A stretch of DNA of 25,866 bases from Syntrophaceae bacterium UBA1163 (GTDB taxonomy: Bacteria; Desulfobacterota; BSN033; UBA1163), in the NCBI GenBank assembly GCA_002311635.1, contig DBZJ01000147.1, positions 1 to 25,866 on the forward strand, given 5' to 3'. Below, one piece after another: positions 5,857-25,390 of the stretch (positions are counted from its first letter, which is position 1; each line of letters begins with the position of its first letter). The notes under the pieces were generated by a model that saw only the letters and a list, made by a program, of their open reading frames with translations, had not been told where the DNA came from and made no database searches. The translations under genes and the position numbers were made by a program.

Positions 5857-7554
5857 TTAGAGTTGAGATTTAGTACTTCCGACCTTTAATTTCAACCGAT
5901 CTTCAGCGTGAATCCGATTGGTCCCGTTGAGATGATTCCAGGTCTTGATTTCTGAAACCGTGAGGTTGAACTTTTTCGCAATCGTCCAAAGGGTGTCTCC
6001 CTCTTTCACGACATAGAGGATTTCTTTTCCCGGCTGTTTTCCGTGCGGGTCATCCAATGCCCTGTGGGCTTTCGTCAACCTGATTTCCAGCTTATCCCCG
6101 GGCATCAGTTTCTTTTCCGGGTAGAGGTTATTCCAGCTGCTGAGGGCCCCGACATTCACTCCCATTTCGTTGGCAATACTCCACAGAGAATCCCCTTTCT
6201 TGATCGTATAGGTCATCTCCTTTGGTTTCGAATGCCGATTACCCCCGTTCGATTCTTTCTTGACCATGGCCATCAGCTTCTGATCCTGATCTTTCGGCAA
6301 GGGGATGAGAAGGTCCATTCCTTTGGAGAGGCGGCTCTTCTTGCTCAGCCGGTTCAGTTCAAGGATGGGCTCTAAGTCGACCCCATAAAGTTTGGCAATT
6401 CTTGCAGGGGTCTCGCCTCTCTTCACCGAATGGGTTCTGAATTGAAATCTTTCGCCAGGAGAGAGGGCTTCAAAATTTCTCAAAAAAAGCTCCTTTTTTC
6501 CGGAAGGAATCTTGATCTCGTAGTCAGGGAAGTTCGGAGGAGTGCACCAGCGCGACAATTCGGGGTTGAGACCCTTGATGTCATCCAGGTCCACCTCGCA
6601 GGCCTTGGCGATCAGGCGAAGGTCGGTGACTTCGGGCACCTTCACCTTCTCATAACGGAGGGACTCCTGGTATTCGATGCCAATGAAACCGTATTTCTCC
6701 GGTTCTTTGGCGATGAGCGCGGCGGCAATCATCTGGGGGACATAATCTTTTGTCTCCCGTTTCAGGTACCGGTATTTTGTCAATTCCCAGAAGTCTTCCG
6801 TGCCATAGCGTTTCATCGCGGCGGCGATCTTTTTTTCACCGGCATTGTAACCGGCGGCAGCGAGGTACCAGCATTCAAACATATCGTGAAGGTCTTTGAG
6901 ATATTTGGCCGCGGCGATGGTCGATTTCTCGGGGTCCCTTCTCTCGTCAATCCACCAGTTCGACCTTAAGCCATATTTTTTCCCCGTGAGATAAATGAAC
7001 TGCCAGGGGCCGGACGCCTTGCTCCTGGAATAGGCATAAGGATTGAAGCCACTCTCGATCAGGGCCATATAGACGAGGTCTTCAGGAAGGCCGTTCTCTC
7101 TCAGAAGACTCTTCATGAAGGGGATATATCTCTCCGACCGCGCCAGCCAATTGGCGAATACCTTCCGACCCGTCGTTTGAAAATACTGGATGAATTGCTC
7201 CACCTTCGCATTGATCACAATAGGGATATCGAAATCCGGTCCTTGTTTTTGCCGCTCTTGCGGGATGACCTCAAGACTGAAATCGTCATTGGACTCCTCG
7301 CCGGTCGGAAATTCCAAACTCCAATTTCCTTGGTTCTCCGCAGGGGATGTTGGATTGGAGGCTGAGGGTTTTTCTGAAGAACAAGGAATTTCTTGAGGGG
7401 AAGACTTTTCCGAACCTGTTTGCGCGGGGAGAGAGGCATATTGTTTTGGAGGGAGAGGAGCAGGAGACGTTTTCTCGGAAACAGGGCTTGGATGGGGATG
7501 ACATGCACACAACAGGAGCACGATTAACCCCGCCGCTAAAATCTTACCCACCAT
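5857..7554 (-). CDS. mltD: Membrane-bound lytic transglycosylase with three LysM repeats (MltD type)
   Basis: A 565-residue lipoprotein that should cleave peptidoglycan glycan strands to 1,6-anhydro products. The signal sequence ends in a lipobox Leu-Cys-Ala-Cys, with Cys18 as the lipidated residue. Residues 19-100 are a Pro/Ser-rich linker. The SLT domain (about 120-270) has the catalytic Glu167 in ALIESGFNP, followed by SGPWQF (181-186) and the AAGYNAGEKKI motif. Three LysM repeats start near residues 375 (HSVKRGET), 449 (YTIKKGDS) and 514 (YVVKEGDT) and would bind GlcNAc chains. The domain order is that of MltD. A TTGACA-like -35 lies at 7642-7637 on the minus strand, but the -10 is unclear. 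Confidence 0.94.
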   Translation of the reverse strand: MVGKILAAGLIVLLLCACHPHPSPVSEKTSPAPLPPKQYASLPAQTGSEKSSPQEIPCSSEKPSASNPTSPAENQGNWSLEFPTGEESNDDFSLEVIPQERQKQGPDFDIPIVINAKVEQFIQYFQTTGRKVFANWLARSERYIPFMKSLLRENGLPEDLVYMALIESGFNPYAYSRSKASGPWQFIYLTGKKYGLRSNWWIDERRDPEKSTIAAAKYLKDLHDMFECWYLAAAGYNAGEKKIAAAMKRYGTEDFWELTKYRYLKRETKDYVPQMIAAALIAKEPEKYGFIGIEYQESLRYEKVKVPEVTDLRLIAKACEVDLDDIKGLNPELSRWCTPPNFPDYEIKIPSGKKELFLRNFEALSPGERFQFRTHSVKRGETPARIAKLYGVDLEPILELNRLSKKSRLSKGMDLLIPLPKDQDQKLMAMVKKESNGGNRHSKPKEMTYTIKKGDSLWSIANEMGVNVGALSSWNNLYPEKKLMPGDKLEIRLTKAHRALDDPHGKQPGKEILYVVKEGDTLWTIAKKFNLTVSEIKTWNHLNGTNRIHAEDRLKLKVGSTKSQL

Positions 7555-8607: not shown

Positions 8608-9312
8608 TTACTTTTTTGGCCTTTTCCAGAATGGGCCGGTTTTGCCGATTTCCTTCATGGCCTGGACCATCTCGCGGGCATATTCCTGCATATGGGAAAC
8701 GTAGTCCTCATCCAAGCGCCGCCTGAAGTAAGGCCCGGAGAACAGCTTGAGCAGGTCGGAAAGTGACAAGATACCCTCGTCGGTGCCTTTGACAAAGGAT
8801 TTCCAGTTACGGATGTGCTCTTCCGACCGGAAGAGATTCATGGTGCTTCAGGCATAGGCCGGGTCTTCAAACCATTTCCAGAACGGGACGGCCACGTAGG
8901 CCGTGTATACTGAAGCTTCCTCATTCAGAACCTTCCCGTCATTGATGACCACCCGGAGAGGCTTGCCGCAATCCAGGCAGGGGAATTCCAACGTCAGTGT
9001 TTTGCCAGGGAATAGCCAGCAGACCGCCAGCGATTCAAAGGCTCACTGGCCGAACCATTTCTGCTGACCGTCGATGGTGATCCGGTATTGCGTCGGAAGG
9101 TTGTTAAAGGGTGCGAATGAGACGATGAGATCGGTTTGAGGGTATAGCCACCCGGGGATTCCCGAGGAGAAAAGGTCGTGCAGGATTTTCCGGCCCTCTT
9201 CAACGGAAAGACCGAGTGCGGCAAGCTCCGTGTAAAAGGGCGCCTGGCCGGTTTCTACCATACGCTTCATGATGACATGAAACGTTTTGTCAAGCACGGT
9301 GGGATTGCTCAT
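8608..9312 (-). CDS. Predicted double-selenocysteine MerB-like (alkylmercury lyase family) protein
   Basis: One continuous frame of 234 codons ending in TAA and holding two internal TGA codons (9045-9043 and 8850-8848), read here as selenocysteine (U). It starts at an ATG with GAGGAGG upstream. The N-terminal 85 residues look like the winged-helix part of MerB (PFYTELAALGLSVEEGRKIL). Then FGQ-U-AFESL...GKTLTLEFPCLDCGKP aligns with MerB YAW-C96-ALDTL...GRTARV...C117, and AYA-U-STMNLFRSEEHIRNW aligns with the Cys159 segment ending in its ...EDW. Thus both catalytic cysteines map to U, and MerB Asp99 maps to Glu. Each TGA is followed by a SECIS-like hairpin. Family knowledge suggests cleavage of carbon-metal bonds, probably mercury; the substrate here is inferred. 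A pseudogene is less likely, since there is no frameshift and no other stop. Confidence 0.88.
8818..8835 (-). promoter_or_regulatory. SECIS element for the second in-frame TGA
   Basis: A perfect 7-bp stem, CUCUUCC (8835-8829) with GGAAGAG (8824-8818), closes a 4-nt loop GGUC (8828-8825). The loop starts 19 nt after the UGA at 8850-8848. A G at the first loop positions and this distance are the features expected of bacterial SECIS elements. Confidence 0.82.
9010..9036 (-). promoter_or_regulatory. SECIS element for the first in-frame TGA
   Basis: In the mRNA, GAAU (9036-9033) pairs with AUUC (9013-9010). After one mismatch, GCUGGC pairs with GCUGGC with two G-U pairs, closing a 5-nt loop GGUCU (9025-9021). 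The loop starts 17 nt after the UGA. Loop sequence and distance closely match the E. coli fdhF SECIS (GGUCU, 18 nt). SelB would bind the loop. Confidence 0.85.
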
Positions 9313-9348
9313 GATGTTCCTCCTCTGAAGTTTCATAAATGAATTATC

Positions 9349-9377
9349 AGTATATGCTAAAAAAGTCAATCAGTAAA
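9349..9377 (-). promoter_or_regulatory. Promoter of the MerB-like selenoprotein gene
   Basis: Minus-strand -35 TTTACT (9377-9372) and -10 TATACT (9354-9349), spaced 17 nt. The predicted start near 9342 gives a leader of about 30 nt with a good GAGGAGG ribosome site. This supports an expressed gene. Confidence 0.6.
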
Positions 9378-23706: not shown

Positions 23707-25308
23707 TCATATCAAAGTCAAAATCAATATCCCTGCCAGGGCAAAAAAGAAAACAGAGGTGAGGAGCTTAATGGTGGATGCCCTCTTCTGGAGAAAAAAG
23801 GAAAGTTGCTCCGAAGTGACTCCCCAGTAGACTATCCCAAAGATGACCAATAATGGAAGGATATAAACGAGATTATACAAAATGAGGTACAAAACAGCAC
23901 TCCCTCTGAGGGAAGGGATATTTGTGACAAAGAGGATTGTGGGAAGATAAACCTGGCTTGTACAAGTGGATTGCAAGAGGGTGACAATGAAACCAATGAC
24001 GACAGCGGCAAGCAGGAAGCGCACAGACGTGCCTTCCCTATTCGCCTCCAACTCGCCACTTCTTACCCGAATGATCCGGTGGATCTTCTTTTTCAAAAAA
24101 TCCGGGACCTGAAGCTTCATCTTGGAAGGGCGTCCCTTTTTCAGCTGGATGTAATCATAAAGGCTAAAGATTCCAAGGAGGACGGCGAATACAAAGGTGA
24201 CAAAATAAACGATTTGCGAGAAGAGAGGCAAGAACGAGAAATGCTTGATGAAACTCAGAATTCCAAGACCGAGCGATAAATGGGTGATGAAGCCTGTTCC
24301 TGAAAAACCCAACCCTACGTACAAGATCTCCCTTTGTTTACTGCCAACCATGGTAAGATAGGAAATGAAAAAAACCAGAGTGGCCAAGGCACATGGATTC
24401 ATTCCCTCAATTAAGCCTGCCAGGAGGATGGCCAGGACTCCAAAGGACTTAAAGCGTTCTACAATTGACTCTTCGGCTTTCTTGGTCTCCTCCGGCGACA
24501 GGGATAGGGATGGTGCTGATTCAGGCATTTTGCTACGACCGACGGTGACGCCAACACTTACTCCGGCAGCGGCGTCAAGACTTACCCGTTCGTACCTCTG
24601 GATCAATGTCTCCACCTTGGATTCCGTGATCTCACCCGGAGGAAGGTAATCGTTTCCGATAAAAATACTCGGTGCAATCAAACGCTTGTCCATGGGAAGG
24701 TTGAGCCGGCTGGACAGGGTTTCGTTTAAACGCTTCCCATCGGGTGTATTCAGGTCGATCTCTTTGATCGTTAGTCGGGGGTACTTCTTCGTCATGTACT
24801 TGAGGAGGACGTTTGCGCGGTCACATTTTGAACATCCTTTCTGATAAAAATAGGCAAGGTCCACTGACCCTTCGGTTCGTGAATCGCGTTTGGTGATTGG
24901 CATTTTCCCCGAGTCACTTAGCTCAATAGGCGGAGGGGAGGCGCCCCCTTGTGCCTGAACCTCCAAGAGGAGGGGATTCAATTTCTCCATGATCTCCATC
25001 TCTCCGGAGAGCATTTGATCTCCGACGAAGACGATAGGGAGTTCATTTTCTGTACGGCCAAATTTTTTCTCCAGCTTGGTGAGGGCTTCATAATAGGCCG
25101 GTTTGTTCACATCGAACGTCTTGATTTCGAGCGTCGGGACCATAGTCTTCAGTGTGGGAAGATAGCTCTGGAGAATGACCTGACAGGACTGACAGTCCTC
25201 GGTATAGAAGTAATAGATCTGGATAGAAGAAGGAGGCTCCTGGGCTATCCCGTAGACAGGCCAGCAGAGGAGAACAGTGCAGAAAAGAAAAACGATCAGC
25301 CTTCGCAT
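23707..25308 (-). CDS. CcdA/DsbD-like thiol-disulfide transporter with two thioredoxin-like domains
   Basis: A 533-residue protein. A signal peptide (about 1-22) leads into two thioredoxin- or glutaredoxin-like domains with CxxC sites, Cys39-Gln-Ser-Cys42 (TEDCQSCQ) and Cys159-Ser-Lys-Cys162 (KGCSKCD). A DsbD/CcdA membrane domain follows at about 285-533. It has several helices and the two expected membrane cysteines, Cys306 (EGMNPCALATL) and Cys449 (QSTCTSQVYLP). It should carry electrons from cytoplasmic thioredoxin to the periplasm. The order (soluble domains first, membrane domain last) differs from E. coli DsbD, where the thioredoxin domain is C-terminal. The ATG at 25308 directly precedes the signal peptide and follows GGGGAAGG. 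Confidence 0.88.
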   Translation of the reverse strand: MRRLIVFLFCTVLLCWPVYGIAQEPPSSIQIYYFYTEDCQSCQVILQSYLPTLKTMVPTLEIKTFDVNKPAYYEALTKLEKKFGRTENELPIVFVGDQMLSGEMEIMEKLNPLLLEVQAQGGASPPPIELSDSGKMPITKRDSRTEGSVDLAYFYQKGCSKCDRANVLLKYMTKKYPRLTIKEIDLNTPDGKRLNETLSSRLNLPMDKRLIAPSIFIGNDYLPPGEITESKVETLIQRYERVSLDAAAGVSVGVTVGRSKMPESAPSLSLSPEETKKAEESIVERFKSFGVLAILLAGLIEGMNPCALATLVFFISYLTMVGSKQREILYVGLGFSGTGFITHLSLGLGILSFIKHFSFLPLFSQIVYFVTFVFAVLLGIFSLYDYIQLKKGRPSKMKLQVPDFLKKKIHRIIRVRSGELEANREGTSVRFLLAAVVIGFIVTLLQSTCTSQVYLPTILFVTNIPSLRGSAVLYLILYNLVYILPLLVIFGIVYWGVTSEQLSFFLQKRASTIKLLTSVFFFALAGILILTLI

Positions 25309-25390
25309 GCCTTCCCCTTTAGGCACATTCAAATGCGACCTCCAGAAAAATTTGGCGTTCAGCCTCAAACCTTACGATTCCACTCGAATG

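Follow-up and report, generated by a model that had tools for sequence, protein, structure and literature searches.

The DNA analysed here (the window) is the 25,866-nucleotide contig DBZJ01000147.1 of Syntrophaceae bacterium UBA1163 (GCA_002311635.1), and its minus strand carries a gene for a protein of the alkylmercury lyase (MerB) type, in which selenocysteine (Sec, U) is predicted at both catalytic cysteine positions. The gene (8608..9312) runs from an ATG at 9312 to a TAA at 8610-8608 and encodes 234 residues, including U90 and U155. As claimed in the initial annotation, what appear to be two frames are a single minus-strand frame of 234 codons, whose only internal stops are the TGA triplets at codon 90 (9045-9043) and codon 155 (8850-8848). 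A Shine-Dalgarno sequence, AGGAGG (9319..9324, minus strand), lies 6 nt 5' of the ATG, and a similar stretch precedes the start codon in most of 28 genes compared. Among 23 further likely genes in the window, 11 end in TAA, 8 in TGA and 4 in TAG; TGA is therefore an ordinary stop here, and a general code with TGA read as Trp does not apply.

The window protein was compared with the MerB family by profile and by structure. It scores 62.7 bits against Pfam PF03243 (MerB; cut-off 27), and all 11 Foldseek matches of its AlphaFold-predicted structure at E <= 0.001 were MerB or MerB2, which places the predicted structure in the MerB fold and bears out the homology first proposed by eye. The profile alignment likewise agreed with the proposed positions of the two Sec residues: it pairs the first U with C96 of MerB and the second U with the position of C159 (in wild-type MerB the same aligner picks C160, the neighbour of C159). 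Hence, where classical MerB has Cys96 and Cys159, both aligned positions of the window protein are encoded by TGA. Two details required correction: the tryptophan that follows the second U was placed eleven residues from it and lies 14 away (U155...W169), and the first-U motif has Glu93 (codon at 9034..9036, minus strand) in the place of the general acid Asp99 of MerB, as the alignment in the initial annotation itself shows. Glu93 is invariant in alignment A1 (18 rows) and present in at least 90% of alignment A2 (65 rows). Furthermore, a Cys112-x-x-Cys115 motif (CLDC; 8968..8979, minus strand) is kept in the family, both of its cysteines being lost in the relative L077; Cys115 is without counterpart in the aligned MerB sequences. 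A CxxC at this place was also seen in the more distant Sec lineages L117, L118 and L080 described below, and not in the Cys/Cys homologues L082 and L081, nor in L111.

Relatives were collected through a scan of GTDB contigs (17 loci) and whole-genome searches (matches in 25 of 198 relatives and, across the phylum, in 44 of 395 genomes). From these, 37 distinct full-length or near-full-length genes, the window gene among them, were compared (28 plus 9 more, the duplicate L086, identical to L010, being dropped); L101 was kept with about 18 residues of its N-terminal part missing, and frameshifted copies (L009, L078, L116), copies at contig ends (L015, L017) and fragments (L079, L083/L042, L018) were excluded. 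The genes span 11 families of the phylum, plus named GTDB contigs, with identity to the window protein down to about 41%. Homologues with other stops at the two sites, named beforehand as a sign against selenocysteine, were looked for: TGA occupies the same two alignment columns in 37/37 genes read as DNA, and an in-frame TAA or TAG occurs in none. The two TGA codons are the sole internal stops in 36/37; L076 has a third at codon 227, probably its true end. Median ratios of non-synonymous to synonymous substitution rates (28 genes) were 0.135 before the first TGA, 0.199 between the two and 0.215 after the second, from the 145, 207 and 182 of 378 pairs, respectively, in the usable range, and the gene is thus under purifying selection before, between and after both TGA codons. 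Some genomes hold several such U/U copies, two in G009 and G097 and three in G102.

A hairpin resembling a selenocysteine insertion sequence (SECIS), sought just downstream of each UGA, was found after both. Hairpin 2 (8818..8835, minus strand) pairs CUCUUCC with GGAAGAG around the loop GGUC, which starts 19 nt after TGA codon 155. The RNA string CUUCCGGUCGGA follows the second TGA in 37/37 genes, forming a stem of six to seven pairs with the loop GGUC. Its codons TTC, CGG and TCG are used in 37/37, whereas elsewhere in these genes they account for 54% of Phe, 34% of Arg and 18% of Ser codons. The stem is paired in 99.2% of cells, every slid register being far less paired, and its outer pairs covary: of 34 distinct rows, 5 have UA for CG and 2 have GC for UA, both changes in the latter case altering the amino acid. 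In 500 shuffles, which take no account of the relatedness of rows, the percentage paired, the number of cells changed on both sides and the covariation score were each reached by 0. Hairpin 1 (9015..9031, minus strand) consists of GCUGGC, the loop GGUCU and GCUGGC, with the loop starting 17 nt after TGA codon 90; its stem is nearly invariant (99.5% of cells paired) and the loop begins GGUC in 29/37 genes. Both spacings are near that of the E. coli fdhF element. Moreover, within the 11 codons that follow each TGA, synonymous diversity relative to expectation fell to 0.51 for the first (p ~0.004) and 0.41 for the second (p ~0.003), in comparison to 0.85 for the rest. The evidence for a SECIS is strong at site 2; at site 1 the element is conserved, without covariation and with weak folding energy. 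Insertion of Sec at both TGA codons is predicted to proceed through two separate SECIS elements within the gene.

The Sec machinery, whose presence in the same genome the initial annotation had proposed to check, is complete there. The window's genome (G000), a metagenome-assembled genome (MAG) of 248 contigs and 90.6% completeness, encodes SelB (364 bits), tRNA-Sec (81.4), SelA (643) and SelD (386), all over their cut-offs, and its SelD itself contains one TGA. SelB was over its cut-off in 23 of 24 carriers tested and in 28 of 29 other genomes tested, and since nearly all non-carriers have it too, it is necessary and not telling. Taken together, we regard it as nearly certain that the gene encodes a double-Sec protein of the MerB fold.

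Homologues with Cys or UGA at the two positions, also suggested as a check, were both found. A protein search gave 328 relatives, the best 120 of which were read at both sites: 52 have Trp at both, 64 have Cys at site 1 and then end, three have Cys at both (P0036, P0051, P0055) and one has Ser and then ends. The Trp/Trp rows are read as a pair of TGA codons translated with table 4, because Trp never occurs at only one of the sites and 37 relatives read as DNA have TGA there. These 52 database proteins (among P0002-P0059) apparently come from short metagenome contigs and constitute a naming trap for Sec proteins. The 64 shortened proteins end exactly at the place of the second TGA and are therefore taken, from their ends, as Cys/Sec. 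A tree of 161 rows was built by a quick method that carries a warning on long branches, the columns of both sites being masked. On it the U/U label required 18 changes, at least 9 of them forced by well-supported branches, and 154 of 157 family rows coded Sec at site 2, whether seen in the DNA or inferred. Site 1 therefore appears to flip between Cys and Sec, and site 2 to be nearly fixed as Sec. Cys occupies both sites in more distant homologues of the same phylum (L082, L081, L108-L110), and genome G062 holds one U/U gene together with one distant Cys/Cys relative.

A second, far-diverged MerB lineage has TGA at both catalytic positions, at L117:449-1234 (G356) and L118:446-1186 (G131), both on the minus strand. 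These proteins score 54.8 and 59.6 bits against Pfam MerB and share 24% and 20% identity with the window protein; they keep Asp after the first TGA (UAVD) and carry the same UUCUUCCGGUCGGAAGA hairpin (GGUC) after the second. A further TGA in L117, at codon 252, probably marks the end of that gene. TGA at the second catalytic position only is found in L080 (~6538-6981, G056; WCAVD type) and in L119/L111 (G363), with Cys there in L110, a relative of L111. In view of these double and single TGA genes, selenium in MerB-type active sites looks recurrent.

A link to mercury was sought in the sample of 395 genomes from the phylum, scoring hgcA (mercury methylation) by the NCBI cut-off. The 23 U/U carriers counted include G393, with a frameshifted copy, and leave out G004, G040 and G167, whose copies are worse broken and of which only G040 has hgcA. 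Over its cut-off in 113 of the 395 genomes, hgcA occurs in 17/23 carriers and 96/372 others (odds ratio 8.1, one-sided Fisher p 4e-6), and in 19/23 carriers if fragments at contig edges are counted. The association persisted when permuted within taxonomic families (97 genomes; p = 0.002) and in genomes of at least 3 Mb (p = 0.009) or at least 3.5 Mb (p = 0.012). The hgcA effect also remains in a logistic fit that includes genome size (z 2.63). As a control of comparable frequency, nifH (98/395 genomes) showed no association, being present in 5/23 carriers. The two genes are not linked: in 16 of the 17 they lie on separate contigs, and on the single contig of G293 they are ~3.5 Mb apart.

Within the window, the U/U gene has a Usp gene downstream and a rhodanese gene upstream. 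Promoter-like hexamers lie 5' of it (9349..9377, minus strand), a consensus match only, four such sites occurring in the window against 1.2 expected. Elsewhere in the window, a minus-strand frame (23707-25368) encodes a protein of 553 residues that matches nothing in Pfam at 1e-3 and has two CxxC segments within its N-terminal third; it adjoins a thioredoxin/SurA-like protein.

On balance these observations favour, by analogy with MerB, a stand-alone MerB-fold selenoenzyme with both catalytic cysteines replaced by Sec that likely cleaves the C-Hg bond of methylmercury or of a like organometal. That the double-Sec protein is an organomercurial lyase is somewhat better than an even prospect. In MerB, proton-assisted cleavage of the Hg-C bond releases methane, the resulting Hg(II) on Cys96 and Cys159 is yielded to attacking thiols, and Asp99 has an accessory role, according to the mechanistic account in PMC4525700. 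A protein with Sec in place of both cysteines and Glu as the acid could plausibly follow the same course. The two selenolates would draw R-Hg+ out of its complexes with thiols or sulfide, protonation of the carbon by Glu93 would let the hydrocarbon leave, and Hg(II) would be held by the two seleniums before passing to other thiols, perhaps the Cys112/Cys115 pair and then cell thiols or sulfide. A hand-over to other thiols is proposed because MerA is over its cut-off in few carriers. Such an enzyme would protect anaerobes, often ones that could themselves produce methylmercury with HgcAB.

Several observations weigh against this reading. Selenium has a far higher affinity for mercury than sulfur has, and two seleniums might grip Hg(II) too tightly for turnover. 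Identity to solved MerB is only 15-19% over the structural alignments, the MerB equivalog NF009710 gives 22 bits against a cut-off of 193, and NF033555 was not listed for the window protein. The Asp99 of classical MerB is replaced by Glu93, MerB2 likewise having no Asp there in the same alignment. At hairpin 1 no covariation was found, because the stem hardly varies, and its folding energy is hardly below that of codon-shuffled controls (mean z -0.54, in comparison to -1.53 for hairpin 2); for hairpin 2, two of the five measures were reached by some of the 500 shuffles, the count of pairs with a change on each side by 50 and that of further pair types by 49. In the carrier G030, whose genome is 85% complete, SelB does not reach its cut-off. 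The frameshifted copies L009, L078 and L116 and the fragments L079, L083 and L018 indicate that the gene is dispensable in some lineages, or that those assemblies have errors. The phylogeny control of the hgcA association reaches family level only, and within family f1 the link is weak (3/5 carriers against 3/8 others). No hgcA over the cut-off was found in the window's genome (best 69.9 bits at the completeness given above), nor in carriers G011, G014, G030 and G209. MerA is over its cut-off in only 2/23 carriers and not in the window's genome (best 395.7 of 454 bits). Finally, no clear operon partner emerged across the loci compared, and the neighbourhood therefore names no substrate. As a side observation, MerA-like flavoprotein frames with one in-frame TGA each were seen at G236:C109:14250-15620, G140:C25:44971-46341 and G267:C36:8806-10179 (391-411 bits, below the MerA cut-off); to judge from these frames they are possible selenoprotein oxidoreductases.

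Among the alternatives, an unlikely one that nonetheless merits attention is a double-Sec MerB-fold enzyme for another organometal(loid) or metal (organotin, organolead, organoarsenic or Cu), of the SaoL type rather than for mercury resistance. The lack of shared gene neighbours pointing to mercury, the scarcity of MerA, the Glu in place of Asp99 and the absence of hgcA from the window's genome are all consistent with it, and PMC13188914 assigns SaoL, another Sec-containing relative of MerB, to a Sec-assisted organometallic system; the hgcA association, with its negative nifH control, points instead to mercury. No alternative metal was positively indicated, no search having been aimed at arsenic, tin or lead genes. 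Less likely again is a binding protein without enzyme activity, in which two seleniums would form an almost irreversible trap for MeHg+ or Hg(II), the protein being discarded once loaded. The tighter hold of selenium on mercury would suit such a trap. So would the release of Hg(II) from MerB only on attack by other thiols, as described in the mechanistic account (PMC4525700), given how few carriers have the acceptor MerA; the Glu93 acid and the predicted MerB fold are kept, however, both needless for a mere trap. It is quite improbable that the protein is a thiol/selenol oxidoreductase using a Sec-Sec diselenide on the MerB fold: two Sec in one active site could form an Se-Se bond, and a redox role is assumed for many selenoproteins of prokaryotes (PMC13188914), but the two positions coincide with the metal ligands of MerB, a CxxU or UxxC redox motif is lacking, and site 1 is often Cys. 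A pseudogene, a sequencing error or read-through with another amino acid, suggested by two in-frame stops and by the broken copies in a few relatives, can be set aside unless all assemblies share one error, given both TGA codons in 37/37 genes free of in-frame TAA or TAG, purifying selection beyond both, TGA serving as an ordinary stop elsewhere in the window, and the presence of hairpins and Sec genes.

If the proposed methylmercury-cleaving selenoenzyme is real, it would use two selenocysteines as a metal-ligand pair to break a metal-carbon bond, and it would constitute a methylmercury sink inside bacteria that often carry the gene for making methylmercury (hgcA in 17/23 carriers). The reason for using selenium against mercury would then become directly testable. 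Ordinary gene calling would cut the protein short at residue 89, ahead of its catalytic core, and in one survey (PMC9948709) Cys96/Cys159 served to select the sequences for the MerB model; double-Sec MerB would therefore likely be missed in environmental estimates of methylmercury breakdown. We put forward, tentatively, the wider possibility of a hidden class of methylmercury-destroying enzymes, in which the bis-selenolate MerB of mercury-methylating anaerobes may pull methylmercury off sulfide or thiols and cleave it. With Sec at the C159 position nearly fixed, the C96 position flipping repeatedly between Cys and Sec, and the L117/L118 lineage alongside, the double-selenium site would be a recurrent solution overlooked by merB surveys and gene callers.

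Among known systems, MerB itself (PF03243; PDB 1s6l/3f0o; MerB2 PDB 5c17) shares with the window protein the fold, the C96 and C159 positions and the acid position, and differs in having neither the predicted Sec at both cysteines, nor Glu for Asp99, nor the extra Cys115; moreover, no mer gene was seen beside the window gene, and MerA is mostly not over its cut-off in carriers. HgcAB mercury methylation, a proposed source of the substrate, is unlinked, and hgcA over its cut-off is lacking in the window's genome. Double-Sec families are known, among them MbdU, MduS and a UxxU metal-binding protein annotated as putative mercuric reductase; they have two Sec and some are tied to metals, and none is listed as MerB (PMC13188914 Table 1), nor did the window protein match any of their NCBIfam models (E <= 1). 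A double-Sec MerB was not found by title or abstract among the literature matches listed, although a mention in papers describing SaoL is possible. SaoL (NCBIfam NF040728), a MerB-like organometallic lyase, is likewise a MerB relative and a predicted selenoprotein. It has one Sec (motif CU, PMC13188914 Table 1) and belongs to the SAO operon, with the ABC transporter subunits SaoB/P/X and with SaoC and SaoT as neighbours; the window gene appears to stand alone beside its Usp and rhodanese genes, no search having been aimed at Sao families in its genome or at the other loci. The same inventory, dated May 2026 and covering 119 families or subfamilies of prokaryotic selenoproteins, has SaoL as the one MerB relative in its available part, and an earlier inventory lists the same accession in its available part (PMC9312934). 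The Sec-containing MerB-like family mentioned in the initial annotation is SaoL, with one Sec; the window gene is not SaoL by the NCBI cut-off, scoring 29.4 bits against 140, with 19.8-47.5 bits for five others (L103, L077, P0036, L117, L118), and none of these six proteins reached an NCBIfam 20.0 cut-off. The window gene thus joins two known kinds, the MerB-fold enzyme and the selenoprotein, in a double-Sec active site that appears to be new.
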